From Candidatus Kryptoniota bacterium (GTDB taxonomy: Bacteria > Bacteroidota > Ignavibacteria > Kryptoniales > JAKASW01), in contig DATCTN010000021.1 in the NCBI GenBank assembly GCA_036567965.1, positions 72,906 through 136,905 of the forward strand: DNA of 64,000 nt. Reading direction: 5' to 3'. The notes under the pieces are model-generated. The model worked only from the letters and a program-made list of their open reading frames with translations. It had not been told where the DNA came from and searched no databases. Position numbers and translations under genes: made by a program. Positions 3,133 through 53,743 of this stretch are shown piece after piece. Positions within the stretch are counted from its first letter, which is position 1, and each line of letters opens with the position of its first letter.

Positions 3133-3446
3133 TTGAGATACAGGAGGAGAGATGCTATCGGAACCGTTAGCGCGGACGTTACCGCTCGTTTTTCACTTTC
3201 ACGAAACTATCGGAGCCCATTAAATCCGTCCACAGTTATCGAGTATCAGTTCCGACCGATAAGATGGTTTCCCTCAAGGTTTACGACACCCTGGGCAGGG
3301 AAAACAGGACATTGGTCGAAAGCCAGCAAAGTGCCGGGAATTACGCGGTTACATTCGATGCGGCGAGTCTGCCCAGCGGAATATATTTCTACACACTATC
3401 GGCCGGGAGTTATTCACAGATCAGGAAGTTGACAGTTGTCAAATAA
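3133..3446 (+). pseudogene. Remnant of a T9SS C-terminal sorting domain, frameshifted
   Basis: Two reading frames together spell a T9SS type A sorting domain. The first reads LSRNYRSPLNPSTVIEYQ, a decayed form of the usual LxQNYPNPFNPST motif. At about 3241-3247 the frame changes and continues as VPTDKMVSLKVYDTLGRE, ending in SGIYFYTLSAGS and KLTVVK. The final frame is a perfect domain end, while the start has lost the PNPF core. No passenger protein remains upstream. It looks like the stub of a deleted surface-protein gene, not a functional CDS. Confidence 0.7.
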
Positions 3447-9778: not shown

Positions 9779-10205
9779 TCTGCTACGACGGTGCAATTCA
9801 GTTGCTCGATGGCTCAGGACCCCTGATGCAGCACTGCAGGACTCGTGACGCAAAAGTGCAAGACACTTGATGCAGCTGTGCAATGTATCTGATGCGCCGG
9901 TGCAAAATACATCATGCGACATCGAAAGGCATTTGTTGCCACCCCGCAAGCCATTTGCTGCGATGTCGCAAGACACTTGATGCGACGGTGTCCGGCACTT
10001 GATACGACGGTGTCTGGCACTTGATACGACGGTGTCTGGCACTTGATGCGGCGGTGTCCGGCACTTGATGCGACGGTGTCCGGCACTTGATGCGAGGGTG
10101 TCCGGCACTTGATGCGACGGTGTCCGGCACTTGATACGACGGTGTCCGGCACTTAATGCGACGGTGTCCGGCACTTAATGCGACGGTGTCTGGCACTTGA
10201 TGCGA
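9779..10205. repeat. 22-bp tandem repeat array, degenerate on the left and homogeneous on the right
   Basis: Ten near-identical 22-bp units run in perfect register from 9975 to 10194, with a partial eleventh to 10205. Each contains a core close to TTGATGCGACGGTGTC. Seven degenerate units with the same 22-base period precede them from 9822, and two more (one a base short) reach back to about 9779. The degenerate units share TGATGC and GTGCAA positions. Because 22 is not a multiple of 3, the minus strand is open in all three frames through much of the array and would encode a 22-residue repeat. There are no unique spacers, so it is not CRISPR. Confidence 0.93.
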
Positions 10206-10222
10206 CCTTTAGGTCGCATCAT
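10175..10222 (-). other. Micro-ORF with strong ribosome-binding site reading into the repeat array
   Basis: On the minus strand AGGAGG (10236-10231) lies eight bases before an ATG at 10222. The frame reads MMRPKGRIKCQTPSH and stops at a TAA created by the ACTTAATG variant found in only two repeat units. Without that variant the frame would run on through the array as a 22-residue repeat. Whether anything is translated is unknown. Confidence 0.25.
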
Positions 10223-38661: not shown

Positions 38662-39975
38662 TCAGAGCCCGTACTTTTTCCGCTTTCGCCAGAGAGTGGC
38701 AGGATCTATTCCCAGAACTCTCGAGGCTTCCTCAACAGTCGCGGTCTCGTGGATAACGCGCGCGATGTAGTCCTTCTCCATTTCCTCAAGTGAGATGAGC
38801 CGTTTGGATTCCTCCCTGCTGAGCTCGTCTGGGAGATGGAACATCTCAATTTTCTTCCCGTGAGCCAGGAGAACCGCCCTCTCGATGACATTTTCGAGCT
38901 GACGGATGTTTCCGGGCCACTGGTAATCTGTGAGGAGTCTGAACGCTTCCGGACCTATCTCGGGAATAGAATCGCCGCCAAATTTCTTGATGAAGTGTTT
39001 GATGAGGACGGGAATATCATCGGGCCGTTCCCGCAACGGCGGGAGCCTCATTGTCACGCCGTTTACCCGGTAGTACAGGTCGTCTCTGAACCTTCCGCCT
39101 GCCAGTGCTTCCTTGAGGTCTCGGTTTGTCGCAGCGATGAATCGAACGTCTACTTTCATCGTCTGTGAATCACCGACGCGCTCGAACTCGCGGCTCTGCA
39201 GGAAGCGAAGGAGCTTCGCCTGTGTCGTCGTCGGGATTTCCGTTATCTCGTCGAGAAACACAGTCCCGCCGTCTGCCATTTCAAACCGACCCTGCCGGTC
39301 TTTCACGGCACCTGTAAACGAACCTTTGACATGGCCGAACAATTCGCTCTCGAGAAGGCTTTCTGAGAGCGCTGCGCAATTTACCGTCATGAAAGGCGCA
39401 GAACATCTTGAACTTGATTTGTGTATGAATTTCGCGAAGAGCTCCTTGCCCGTCCCGCTCTCACCTTCGATCAAAACGCTGATGTTCGTGTTTGCGATTT
39501 CGCGAGCCAGGTTAAGGACGGAAAGCATTTGCGGATTGATCGTCACGATGTCTTCAGCGGCTTCGTATTCCATCAGTTTCTGCTGAAGGTCCTTCAGTTC
39601 CTTCTGGAGCTTGAAATGTTCGAAGACTTTTTGAGCGAAATGCTGCAGCTCCTGAAAGTCGAAAGGTTTCTGAAGGTAGTCGTACGCTCCCTGCTTTATT
39701 GCCTGCACGGCAGTGTCGACTGAGCCGTGTGCCGTCACGATCACTGCGATTATGTCCGGACAGAATTTTTTGACCTCGTTGAGGAGATGCAGTCCGTCCA
39801 TCGGATACATTTTCAAATCGAAGAACCCGATATCGAATTGTTTCTGCGCCGCGACTCGAAGTGCTTCGTCCGGCTTCGACAACGCCGTGACTTCAAGCCC
39901 TATAGACTCGAGACAAATCTTCATAGTACGAAGAATATTGTGTTCGTCGTCGACTAGAAGTACTCTAGCGCTCAT
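38662..39975 (-). CDS. NtrC-family sigma-54 response regulator
   Basis: 437 residues. The receiver (1-120) has the phosphoacceptor in FFDLKMYPMDG. The AAA+ domain has Walker A GESGTGKE and Walker B GTVFLDEI. The sigma-54 contact loop reads GSFTGA instead of the usual GAFTGA. The C-terminal Fis-type helix-turn-helix is EEASRVLGIDPATLWRKRKK. It overlaps the upstream histidine kinase gene by 4 bases. It should activate sigma-54 promoters; targets are not visible here. Confidence 0.95.
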   Translation of the reverse strand: MSARVLLVDDEHNILRTMKICLESIGLEVTALSKPDEALRVAAQKQFDIGFFDLKMYPMDGLHLLNEVKKFCPDIIAVIVTAHGSVDTAVQAIKQGAYDYLQKPFDFQELQHFAQKVFEHFKLQKELKDLQQKLMEYEAAEDIVTINPQMLSVLNLAREIANTNISVLIEGESGTGKELFAKFIHKSSSRCSAPFMTVNCAALSESLLESELFGHVKGSFTGAVKDRQGRFEMADGGTVFLDEITEIPTTTQAKLLRFLQSREFERVGDSQTMKVDVRFIAATNRDLKEALAGGRFRDDLYYRVNGVTMRLPPLRERPDDIPVLIKHFIKKFGGDSIPEIGPEAFRLLTDYQWPGNIRQLENVIERAVLLAHGKKIEMFHLPDELSREESKRLISLEEMEKDYIARVIHETATVEEASRVLGIDPATLWRKRKKYGL

Positions 39976-41843
39976 GCGGGTATCTCTTTCTCGCTGGAAA
40001 CCCTGTTCTTGATGGGAATAGAAAAAGTGAACACACTGCCGATACCAACTTTGCTCTCAACTCCTATCCGCCCGCCATAAAGTTCGACAATCTCCTTGGC
40101 AATTGATAGTCCGAGTCCGACCGAGCCGGGCGACGGATTTGCGGAGTCCCTGAGCTGTACGAATTTATCGAAGACTTTCTGCAATTCATCCTCCTCTATT
40201 CCGCACCCTGTGTCTCGAACCGCAACAAGTAGATCGTCTCCGTTCGTTGTGGCGTCAATGGTAACGCTGCCGCCCGAGTCTGTGAATCGCAGGGCATTAG
40301 TTACCAGATTCGATATCACCCATGATAACTGCTGAAAGTCTGCAACGAATTCCGGGATGGCCTCATCAATGTTCAACGTGAGTCTCACATTCTTGTCCTT
40401 GAATTGCAGCAGCACCGGCTGGACTGAAAAATCTACAAGGGACTTCACGTCGATACGATCCTGCTTGATTTGAGTCCTGCCCGATTCCAGGCGGGAAAGC
40501 TGGAGAAGCTCTCTCACCAGCTTTGTGAGCCTTTCAGCGTCTTCCTTTGCTGCAGCAAGAAGTTCTCTTTGACCCTTGTTCACCCGGCCGACGTGTTCTT
40601 CTTTTAATATATCGAGCGTCATATTGATTGAAGTCAGGGGGGTCCTGAACTCGTGCGACACGCGGGCGAGAAACTCAGACTTCATCTTGTCGAGTTCTTT
40701 GAATTGGGTCACGTCCTGCAAAATGAGAATAACGCCGGTTACACTTCCGGTCTTGTCCTTGGAGGAGTTCAGCTTGATCCGGAAATATCTTTCTTCTCCG
40801 CCGAACGACATTTCAAAATACGGAGGGATATTCTTAAGTGACTCGCCTCCGATGCACCGGCTGACATAGTTCTGCAGGTCTTTGTTGCGCACGACATTTT
40901 GAAAAGCTTTTCCTGCTGACGCTTCCTCGGATACGTCAAAAAGCTCTTCAGCTAGCTGGTTCATCAGGACCACGTTCCGCTCGCTGTCCACTACAATGAT
41001 CGGATCGGAGATTGTCCCTACTATCGCCTCGGATTTTTTCTTTTCGGAGATCAGTTTTTCGATATTGATCTCTTCATATTTCGACAGGCGCTCTGCCATC
41101 CTGTTGAATTCGCGGCTCAACTCGCCGATTTCATCGTTGGAGCTGATATTTGCCCTGACGTCCAGCAGCCCCCTACCGAGTTTCCTTACAGTGTCGGTCA
41201 GCTTCTCCGCCGGCTCGAGTATGTACTGAGAAAATTGCCAGCTTGCCACTATGCTAAGTACGATTGCCAAAAGGGCCGCGCCCACTACTGCGACCGTTGC
41301 CTGAGTAGAGATGTCTCCCGCCTTTGTGTCAGTCTGTACCATGGCGTTATTGTTCATGTCGAGAAGCTGAGAGCAGTCTCCCTTGATCCTGTCGAAGATG
41401 GGTAGAATAGTTCTGCTGTGGTATTGTTGCGCGTATAAGTGACTGCGTGTAATGACGAGCCCGTACAGAATGTCCGTGGCATCCGAATACTTCTTGTAGT
41501 TCGCCTCTATATCTTTAAGTATGTCTATCGCGCGATCCGAAGCATTCGACCTCTCCTGAGCCTGCCTGAACCACACGAAAAAATCCGTGTGGTTGTTCGT
41601 GAAATCATCGTATCCTACATCGAGACTGCCATTCAACATTACCAGTTGTGAGCTGTTGTCCCGCTCGAGAGCGACCACCATGTTCTGGACCGCAATGACA
41701 TTCTGGTAATTCTGTTTCACCAGAGTCGTGATCGCTTGTGTCAGCTGATTGAAATTATAAATCGACCACACGCTGACAACGACGTTGATAACGACAAGGA
41801 CCGTGAATCCTGCTGCAACTTTGGCTCGAAGCGTGCTAAACAT
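39972..41843 (-). CDS. Membrane sensor histidine kinase with HAMP and PAS domains
   Basis: 623 residues. Two membrane helices (about 10-30 and 185-205) bracket a four-helix-type extracytoplasmic sensor. A HAMP domain (about 205-260), a PAS domain (about 265-375), HisKA with SHEFRTPLTSINM and HATPase with VGLGLSIAKEIVELYGG follow. It is the partner of the NtrC-family regulator. The ligand is unknown; the architecture is typical of stress or nutrient sensors. Confidence 0.93.
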   Translation of the reverse strand: MFSTLRAKVAAGFTVLVVINVVVSVWSIYNFNQLTQAITTLVKQNYQNVIAVQNMVVALERDNSSQLVMLNGSLDVGYDDFTNNHTDFFVWFRQAQERSNASDRAIDILKDIEANYKKYSDATDILYGLVITRSHLYAQQYHSRTILPIFDRIKGDCSQLLDMNNNAMVQTDTKAGDISTQATVAVVGAALLAIVLSIVASWQFSQYILEPAEKLTDTVRKLGRGLLDVRANISSNDEIGELSREFNRMAERLSKYEEINIEKLISEKKKSEAIVGTISDPIIVVDSERNVVLMNQLAEELFDVSEEASAGKAFQNVVRNKDLQNYVSRCIGGESLKNIPPYFEMSFGGEERYFRIKLNSSKDKTGSVTGVILILQDVTQFKELDKMKSEFLARVSHEFRTPLTSINMTLDILKEEHVGRVNKGQRELLAAAKEDAERLTKLVRELLQLSRLESGRTQIKQDRIDVKSLVDFSVQPVLLQFKDKNVRLTLNIDEAIPEFVADFQQLSWVISNLVTNALRFTDSGGSVTIDATTNGDDLLVAVRDTGCGIEEDELQKVFDKFVQLRDSANPSPGSVGLGLSIAKEIVELYGGRIGVESKVGIGSVFTFSIPIKNRVSSEKEIPA

Positions 41844-51610: not shown

Positions 51611-52246
51611 TTGAAAGACCCCATGAGCAATCTAACTGTAATCGATCATCCGTTGATAAAACGGGACATTACCATTCTAAGGGACAAGTCGACCTCAAGC
51701 GAAGATTTCAGAATAGTCTTGAGAAGACTTGCATCGCTGATGGTGTATGAGGTGACGAAAGACCTTAAACTGGTCAATCACTCAATCGACACTCCGTTGG
51801 AAAGGACGACCGGGCATTTGATATCAGATCAGGTGATACTGGTGCCGGTTCTTCGGGCCGGTCTCGGTATGCTTGAAGCCTATCTCAGTTTCATTCCTAA
51901 CGCGAAGGTCGGCCACATCGGACTTTATCGCGACGAGACGACGCTGAAACCGGTGGACTACTATGCCAAGTTCCCCCCGAATCTTTCGGGCAGCAAAGTG
52001 ATCCTGATCGATCCGATGTTGGCGACAGGAGGAAGCGCCTCGGAGGCGGTCAAATATCTAAAAGAGCGTGAAGCCAACGACATCAGGCTGAATTGTGTTG
52101 TCGCGGCACCGGAGGGAGTGAGATTGCTCGAGAAGAATCATCCGGAAGTACGAATTTATGCGGCCGTGCTCGACCGTGAGTTAAACAAAAACGGATACAT
52201 CCTTCCCGGACTAGGAGACGCCGGGGACCGGATATTCGGCACTTGA
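51611..52246 (+). CDS. upp: Uracil phosphoribosyltransferase
   Basis: Pyrimidine salvage enzyme making UMP from uracil and PRPP. 211 residues. The opening MSNLTVIDHPLIKRDITILRDK is typical, the PRPP loop is LIDPMLATGGSASEAV, and the uracil-binding end GLGDAGDR is intact. ATG 51623 may be the real start rather than TTG 51611. Ribosome-binding site not obvious. Confidence 0.95.
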   Translation: MKDPMSNLTVIDHPLIKRDITILRDKSTSSEDFRIVLRRLASLMVYEVTKDLKLVNHSIDTPLERTTGHLISDQVILVPVLRAGLGMLEAYLSFIPNAKVGHIGLYRDETTLKPVDYYAKFPPNLSGSKVILIDPMLATGGSASEAVKYLKEREANDIRLNCVVAAPEGVRLLEKNHPEVRIYAAVLDRELNKNGYILPGLGDAGDRIFGT

Positions 52247-52274: not shown

Positions 52275-53026
52275 ATGAGCCAGGAAAGGGACGACAAGGT
52301 TTACAGATTCGGAGACGACAACCTCCTCTCGAATGTCATCACTAAGAACGAGCTGCGTGATTGTTATGACAGGTTCCATGAGAAATCGGAATTTGTCTAC
52401 TACCATAATAAGACAACCCGTAAGTTCCTGACTGTACTTCTCAGGAAAGCGCGAGTGAGGGCTGGCTCGTCGGTTCTTGATGTCGGTTGCGCAGTGGGAT
52501 TTTATACGGAACAGATGCGTCGACTCGGATTTCAATCTGTCGGTCTGGACATCAGTCGGGTCGGCATTCTGCGGGGGCGTGAGAAATACCCTGCGTCTCT
52601 CTTCTTTGTCGGTGATGCGGCTGACATGCCGATCAACGATCGGTCATTCGACGCGATATTCATGCTCGGTTGCAGTCTGACCAATACGCGCGATATTCAA
52701 GCGATCCAAATTTATTTGAACAGACTTATGAAGTTTGTTCGCGACGATACGATGGAGTTCTGATACTGATCGGAGGGACGGATTTTTCCGGAAGGGTTGC
52801 GCCGACTTCTGAATGGATCTACCACCGGTACGCCGAGATATTGAAGATCATCGACCCGGACTCAGTGGACGCGGAAGGCCCGTTCATCATGAACTTGAAA
52901 CTTCTCTCACGTCTTGGTTTCCTGGCGCTTAATGCAGGTTTCGGTTTCGCGGCAAGGATATTTGGCAGACGAAGAACTTGGAGTGTCGTTTACTTCATCA
53001 GAAAAAGAAAATCACCCGGCAAATAA
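52275..53026 (+). pseudogene. SAM-dependent methyltransferase interrupted by a 5-bp tandem duplication
   Basis: ATG 52275 with a GGGGGA upstream opens a class I methyltransferase (VLDVGCAVGFYTEQ, VGLDISRVGILRG, VGDAADMPINDRSFD). At 52744-52753 the sequence ACGAT occurs twice in tandem. The first frame ends two codons later in a stop, while the remainder (GVLILIGGTDFSGRV to the end at 53026) continues in another frame. Removing one ACGAT restores RDDGVLILIGG and a single 249-residue protein. The gene is therefore broken as read, by a slippage-like event or a sequence error. Confidence 0.85.
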
Positions 53027-53743
53027 TCTTCCGCCCAGGTAGGTGGCTGCCGCGGCAAGTCCGCCGATTGCCATGCTTTCGAGCCCGCTGCGAAGAAAGT
53101 TCTTTCCGGTTACGACAGTCTTTGCCGCACCAACACCAAAAAGGACACTCAGAGTTATCGCGATGCTCAGGGTGAGACCCGGCACTGGCTGCATGAACAT
53201 GTAAGGGATTATCGGCATCAACGCGCCGAATGCGTACGCGCCCCCGGTTGCAATCCCGGACTTCGTCGGTGAAATGGTATTATCCATAGAGAGGCCCAAC
53301 TCTTCCCGCATCATAATATCTACCCATCTTTTCTTGTCGGATGTGATATGCGAAACAATCTTCTCCAGCATTTCGTCTTTGAATCCTTTTGCACTGTATA
53401 TTTCCCTTATCTCTTCGCGTTCAATATCGGGAAATTTATCGACCTCATATCCTTCGCGGCTCATTTCACCTTTATAATATTCTATTTGTGATTTGGTCGA
53501 GAGGTATGCTCCGAGCGCCATCGATATTGTACCTCCGATAAGCTCGGCTAGTCCTGCCACAAGAATCACACTGCTCTTCACGCCGGCGCCGTTCACTCCT
53601 GAAGCTACCGCGAACGCCGCCACGAGGCCGTCGTTCGCACCGAACACTAACTCTCTGATTATGTTTCCGCCGGGGATATGTAACGCCTCGGTATGCGACG
53701 GCGTGTTGCTCAGAACCCTTCCTCTCCAAGACCATTTCGCCAT
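53012..53743 (-). CDS. VIT1/CCC1-family iron/manganese transporter
   Basis: 243 residues with four to five membrane helices. Early segment RELVFGANDGLVAAFAVASGV, then GGTISMALGAYLSTKSQ with the conserved glycine-rich loop, a soluble acidic metal-binding region (about 100-160), and the C-terminal pair YAFGALMPIIPYMF and TGKNFLRSGLESMAIGG. The family exports Fe(II) or Mn(II) from the cytosol. It overlaps the broken methyltransferase convergently by 15 bases. Confidence 0.9.
   Translation of the reverse strand: MAKWSWRGRVLSNTPSHTEALHIPGGNIIRELVFGANDGLVAAFAVASGVNGAGVKSSVILVAGLAELIGGTISMALGAYLSTKSQIEYYKGEMSREGYEVDKFPDIEREEIREIYSAKGFKDEMLEKIVSHITSDKKRWVDIMMREELGLSMDNTISPTKSGIATGGAYAFGALMPIIPYMFMQPVPGLTLSIAITLSVLFGVGAAKTVVTGKNFLRSGLESMAIGGLAAAATYLGGRLFAG

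Follow-up and report, generated by a model that had tools for sequence, protein, structure and literature searches.

Why does the methyltransferase gene at 52275-53026 in the stretch of DNA analysed here (64,000 nucleotides, referred to as the window) change reading frame partway along its length, and does the change reflect a mutation in the organism, a genetic switch, a recoding site or an error in the assembled sequence? The 5' part of the gene (52275-52763, + strand) is its SAM-binding half; it starts in frame 1 at an ATG at 52275 and stays open for 162 codons up to a stop at 52761-52763. It scores 46.7 bits against the Pfam family Methyltransf_25, for which the cut-off is 27, and 44.6 bits against Methyltransf_11 (cut-off 21.2), and is 48-58% identical to intact congeneric homologues. 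The homology ends at 52748 and is followed by 4 out-of-frame codons and the stop. The 3' part (52754-53026, + strand; 90 codons plus stop) lies in the shifted frame and corresponds to the C-terminal region of the family, with 42-58% identity to the congeneric homologues over their C-terminal part and a separate profile match of 94.5 bits; it would carry the last strands of the fold. On its own, this downstream ORF matched no Pfam family. The two reading frames overlap at 52670-52763 and, the shift aside, each half is open.

In terms of the class I SAM-dependent methyltransferases (Methyltransf_25/11), the SAM-binding half of the window gene has the core profile match, above both curated cut-offs. 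The window copy differs from this class in being frame-broken: the complete fold is not found in a single reading frame, as the C-terminal 90 codons are in the other one. A profile built from six intact homologues (~245 aa) matched solved methyltransferases, mainly over the SAM-binding part, with 3l8d, 6uak and 1p91 heading the 40 matches listed. Two proteins were also tested against NCBIfam; none of the 25 models listed for each reached its cut-off, the best being MTase_DVU1556 (50.8 and 54.5 bits, compared with a cut-off of 155).

At the point where the frame changes there are two head-to-tail copies of ACGAT, ACGATACGAT, at 52744-52753 (+ strand); on this the sequence and the open frames agree with what the earlier note had described. 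When the region was aligned to a profile of 11 homologues, frame 1 matched as far as profile position 167, at 52746-52748, and the downstream frame took over with position 168 at 52754, leaving 52749-52753 as five bases with no profile position of their own. The same excess was obtained from tblastn, in which the junction in the window was 5 nt longer than in all five syntenic orthologues (ORFs from L040-L044), a figure computed by hand from the HSP ends. The size of the insert is therefore set by the orthologues, and for random letters the chance that five inserted bases would equal the preceding five is ~1 in 1000. Since the inserted bases copy those preceding them, a tandem duplication is the simplest account of the junction. 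The claim that the methyltransferase is broken by a 5-bp tandem duplication is thus borne out by the intact syntenic orthologues and by the spacing.

We looked for homologues of each half in other genomes. For the 5' half, 53 of 61 genomes (its own and 60 relatives) had a match at E <= 0.001, many of these matches being weak, as a common fold would lead one to expect; matches with E < 1e-40 came from six congeners, G011, G005, G007, G002, G006 and G003, the last with two copies. The 3' half was found in seven of the 13 genus genomes, i.e. the same six congeners and the window's own genome. In each of these six congeners both halves lie within a single open frame (250-286 codons, stop to stop). 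A single ORF is likewise seen in each of L009-L012, four homologues of this class that are more distantly related. The five syntenic orthologues are intact single ORFs that match the two halves of the window gene back to back, with only ~50% identity to it. In the window's own genome there was no further match to the 5' half at E <= 0.001, which leaves no sign of a close intact backup copy. A protein search of genome contigs with the 5' half found no relative. Searching with an alignment of the six intact homologues yielded 434 relatives; the 80 best were retained, headed by four metagenome-assembled 'Bacteroidetes bacterium' records, and no strain-level relative was found. The comparison with relatives that had been proposed for this locus gave intact orthologues at the level of the genus.

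The presence or absence of the gene among congeners suggests why a break might be tolerated. In the window it occupies a slot between a uracil phosphoribosyltransferase gene on the left (51611-52246, + strand; Pfam UPRTase 238.8 bits), which has one match per genome in all 13 genus genomes, and a convergent gene for a VIT1-family membrane protein on the right (53012-53743, - strand; Pfam VIT1 230.2 bits), which lies on the opposite side of the slot in all 12 congeners. An orthologue of the methyltransferase is present in this slot in 5 of the 12 congeners, with 757-771 bp between the matches to the border genes. The slot lacks an orthologue in the other seven, in six of which the border-gene matches are 19-93 bp apart, and a tblastn search (E <= 0.01) of the seven stretches holding these slots found no methyltransferase remnant. 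G003 belongs to the seven (19 bp between the border-gene matches); its two intact methyltransferase copies are found away from the usual slot, on contigs C155 and C75 (L045 and L046). In G008 the border-gene matches are 1972 bp apart and the slot contains another ORF of ~590 codons (L077:617-2589), the beginning of which we take to resemble FkbH/HAD-type proteins.

In the three gene-bearing congeners with a stretch spanning the entire block (G007, G002 and G006), the methyltransferase is 43-54% conserved, compared with 57-88% for each other block gene; in four congeners without the methyltransferase the second cytochrome-like block gene is as low, at 45-47%. The methyltransferase gene thus comes and goes in the genus, and its absence from the slot in 7 of the 12 congeners marks it as accessory and dispensable. 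A FastTree tree of the neighbouring genes, shown rooted arbitrarily on G003, was weakly supported (0.61 and 0.67) at the branches on which the balance of losses and gains would depend.

We consider it likely that the locus records an ordinary mutation of recent date by which an accessory class I SAM methyltransferase lost its function, and of the three options raised by the earlier note it is the pseudogene in the making that we favour. In this scheme, the accessory methyltransferase gene in the UPRTase/VIT1 slot would have gained a 5-bp tandem duplication, with replication slippage as the most likely cause. Translation in the shifted frame would end four codons past the homology, giving a product that keeps the SAM-binding half but has neither the C-terminal region nor the final strands of the Rossmann-like fold. 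Because these parts would be missing, the shortened product is, going by the general class I methyltransferase fold, most likely inactive. As the gene is dispensable in the genus the break would be tolerated, and the outcome would be a pseudogene at an early stage or a null allele in this strain.

This reading fits what is expected of a pseudogene, in that intact orthologues accompany a disabling change in the window copy and loss is tolerated, the gene being absent from the slot in seven congeners. The locus shares with ordinary bacterial pseudogenes that arise by a short frameshifting indel the presence of intact orthologues elsewhere, a single disabling indel and a dispensable gene, and nothing sets it apart from them beyond the fresh state of the window copy. 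The break is of an ordinary, already known kind: one tolerated break in an accessory gene that is often absent from congeners, with little significance beyond its value for annotation.

How fresh the break is was assessed from the state of preservation of the two halves. Together they keep 47 of the 54 positions that are invariant in the six intact homologues (0.87), which is within the range of 0.75-0.96 obtained when each intact homologue was left out in turn and compared with the other five plus the window. Of the seven lost positions, three belong to the N half, which has 38 of the invariant positions, and four to the C half, which has 16. First- and third-position G+C is lower in the C half (0.489 and 0.556) than in any other of the nine stretches compared, though in profile the C half is still similar to the VIT1-family gene; from the lost positions and the G+C, both of them small numbers, the C half could already have been drifting. 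The break is probably young, because conserved positions survive about as well as in intact homologues and neither half is interrupted other than by the shift. Support for recency is indirect, since no close strain was found and the orthologues are so divergent; the earlier description of the break as recent is thus upheld as probable.

The main rival explanation is an error of assembly or consensus, or the collapse of a strain mixture into a single contig, in which case the gene in the organism would be intact. We regard this as unlikely, though with a substantial enough chance that it deserves to be weighed against the mutation. It would accord with the good preservation of the rest of the gene, and three congeneric records (L078-L080) are metagenome-assembled drafts; the window's own genome consists of 32 contigs. 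Many annotated bacterial pseudogenes are described as assembly artefacts in one report (PMC11017572), which also counts in favor of an error. If errors of this kind were present, further broken frames might be expected in the window, and we scanned it for them with ORFs of at least 100 codons from the corresponding stretches of G002, G005, G006, G007 and G011. A total of 220 ORFs had matches at E <= 1e-8, and matches above 60 bits covered 46,293 of the 64,000 bp, within which the scan would miss short breaks near gene ends. Split matches were limited to the methyltransferase (five queries), one decayed remnant of a secretion tail and one false case, so that apart from the remnant no other real frame break was seen in the bases covered. 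Frame breaks in conserved genes are rare in the window, and this favors a real mutation without proving it. In addition, neither short-read nor long-read sequencing is known typically to produce 5-bp tandem duplications away from homopolymers, which also counts against an assembly error.

The false case, at 39619-41060, consists of two neighbouring reading frames that match separate domains of one long ORF of a relative at 22-26%; from the alignment we read them as two genes, sensor kinase-like and response regulator-like, and rejected the case as a break. The decayed remnant, at 3133-3446, resembles a type IX secretion C-terminal sorting tail, with frame 1 matching at 3190-3270 and frame 3 at 3249-3443. 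Its congeneric match is an ORF of 233 aa in L064, in which Por_Secre_tail is recognised (36.5 bits, cut-off 27); no Pfam family was matched by the window's own frame-1 ORF in the remnant.

A reversible switch, in which slippage between two copies and one copy of ACGAT turns the methyltransferase off and on, is in our judgement very improbable. The same low standing applies to the idea that the two-copy unit acts as a live, low-rate on/off switch in the population, by which the accessory methyltransferase would be silenced and not lost. Contraction of a perfect tandem repeat is possible in principle, and one source describes reversible null alleles in bacteria, namely in agr, by duplication plus inversion and by a poly(A) tract, which counts for a switch although the repeats are of another type (PMC6686034). 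Against this, the repeat has only two copies, and such repeats occur in the window at chance level: perfect two-copy 5-mers were found in 64 registers (54 separate places), compared with ~62.5 registers expected under equal base frequencies. One of the others lies within the methyltransferase gene itself, at 52555-52564, where the frame is unbroken. The repeat is also not kept in relatives, as none of the six homologues has a tandem repeat of 5-8 bp within 72 bp around the junction; a 4-bp tandem repeat is present near it, in the same 72 bp, in two of the six.

The locus does share with the phase-variable (contingency) genes that depend on simple sequence repeats the feature that the copy number of a tandem repeat decides the frame. 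However, it differs from them in that its repeat has two copies, is of chance abundance and is absent from the junction in the six homologues; the tract neither exceeds chance nor is conserved, as would be looked for in a phase-variable gene. The suggestion of a phase switch at this short repeat therefore found no positive evidence. As a caution for similar cases, a two-copy 5-mer is no evidence of a phase switch, because the window holds about the number of them that chance predicts.

Least credible of all is recoding, in which ribosomes would shift by -1 (or +2) where the two frames overlap and so make a full-length protein with two extra residues. The overlap itself and the largely conserved appearance of both halves would permit it. 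Against it, all 11 homologues examined are single-frame, so there is no conserved need for recoding and no frame transition conserved in orthologues; the overlap contains no in-phase X XXY YYZ slippery heptamer (one is present out of phase at 52708); and the product would mismatch the spacing of the orthologues. We have set a programmed frameshift aside on the grounds of the single-frame homologues and the lack of an in-phase heptamer.

Repeats of a different kind are also found in the window. A minisatellite-like array at 9974-10206 consists of ~10.6 copies of a 22-bp unit with 93% matches, and it is preceded at 9824-9883 by ~2.7 more diverged copies of the unit, with 71% matches.
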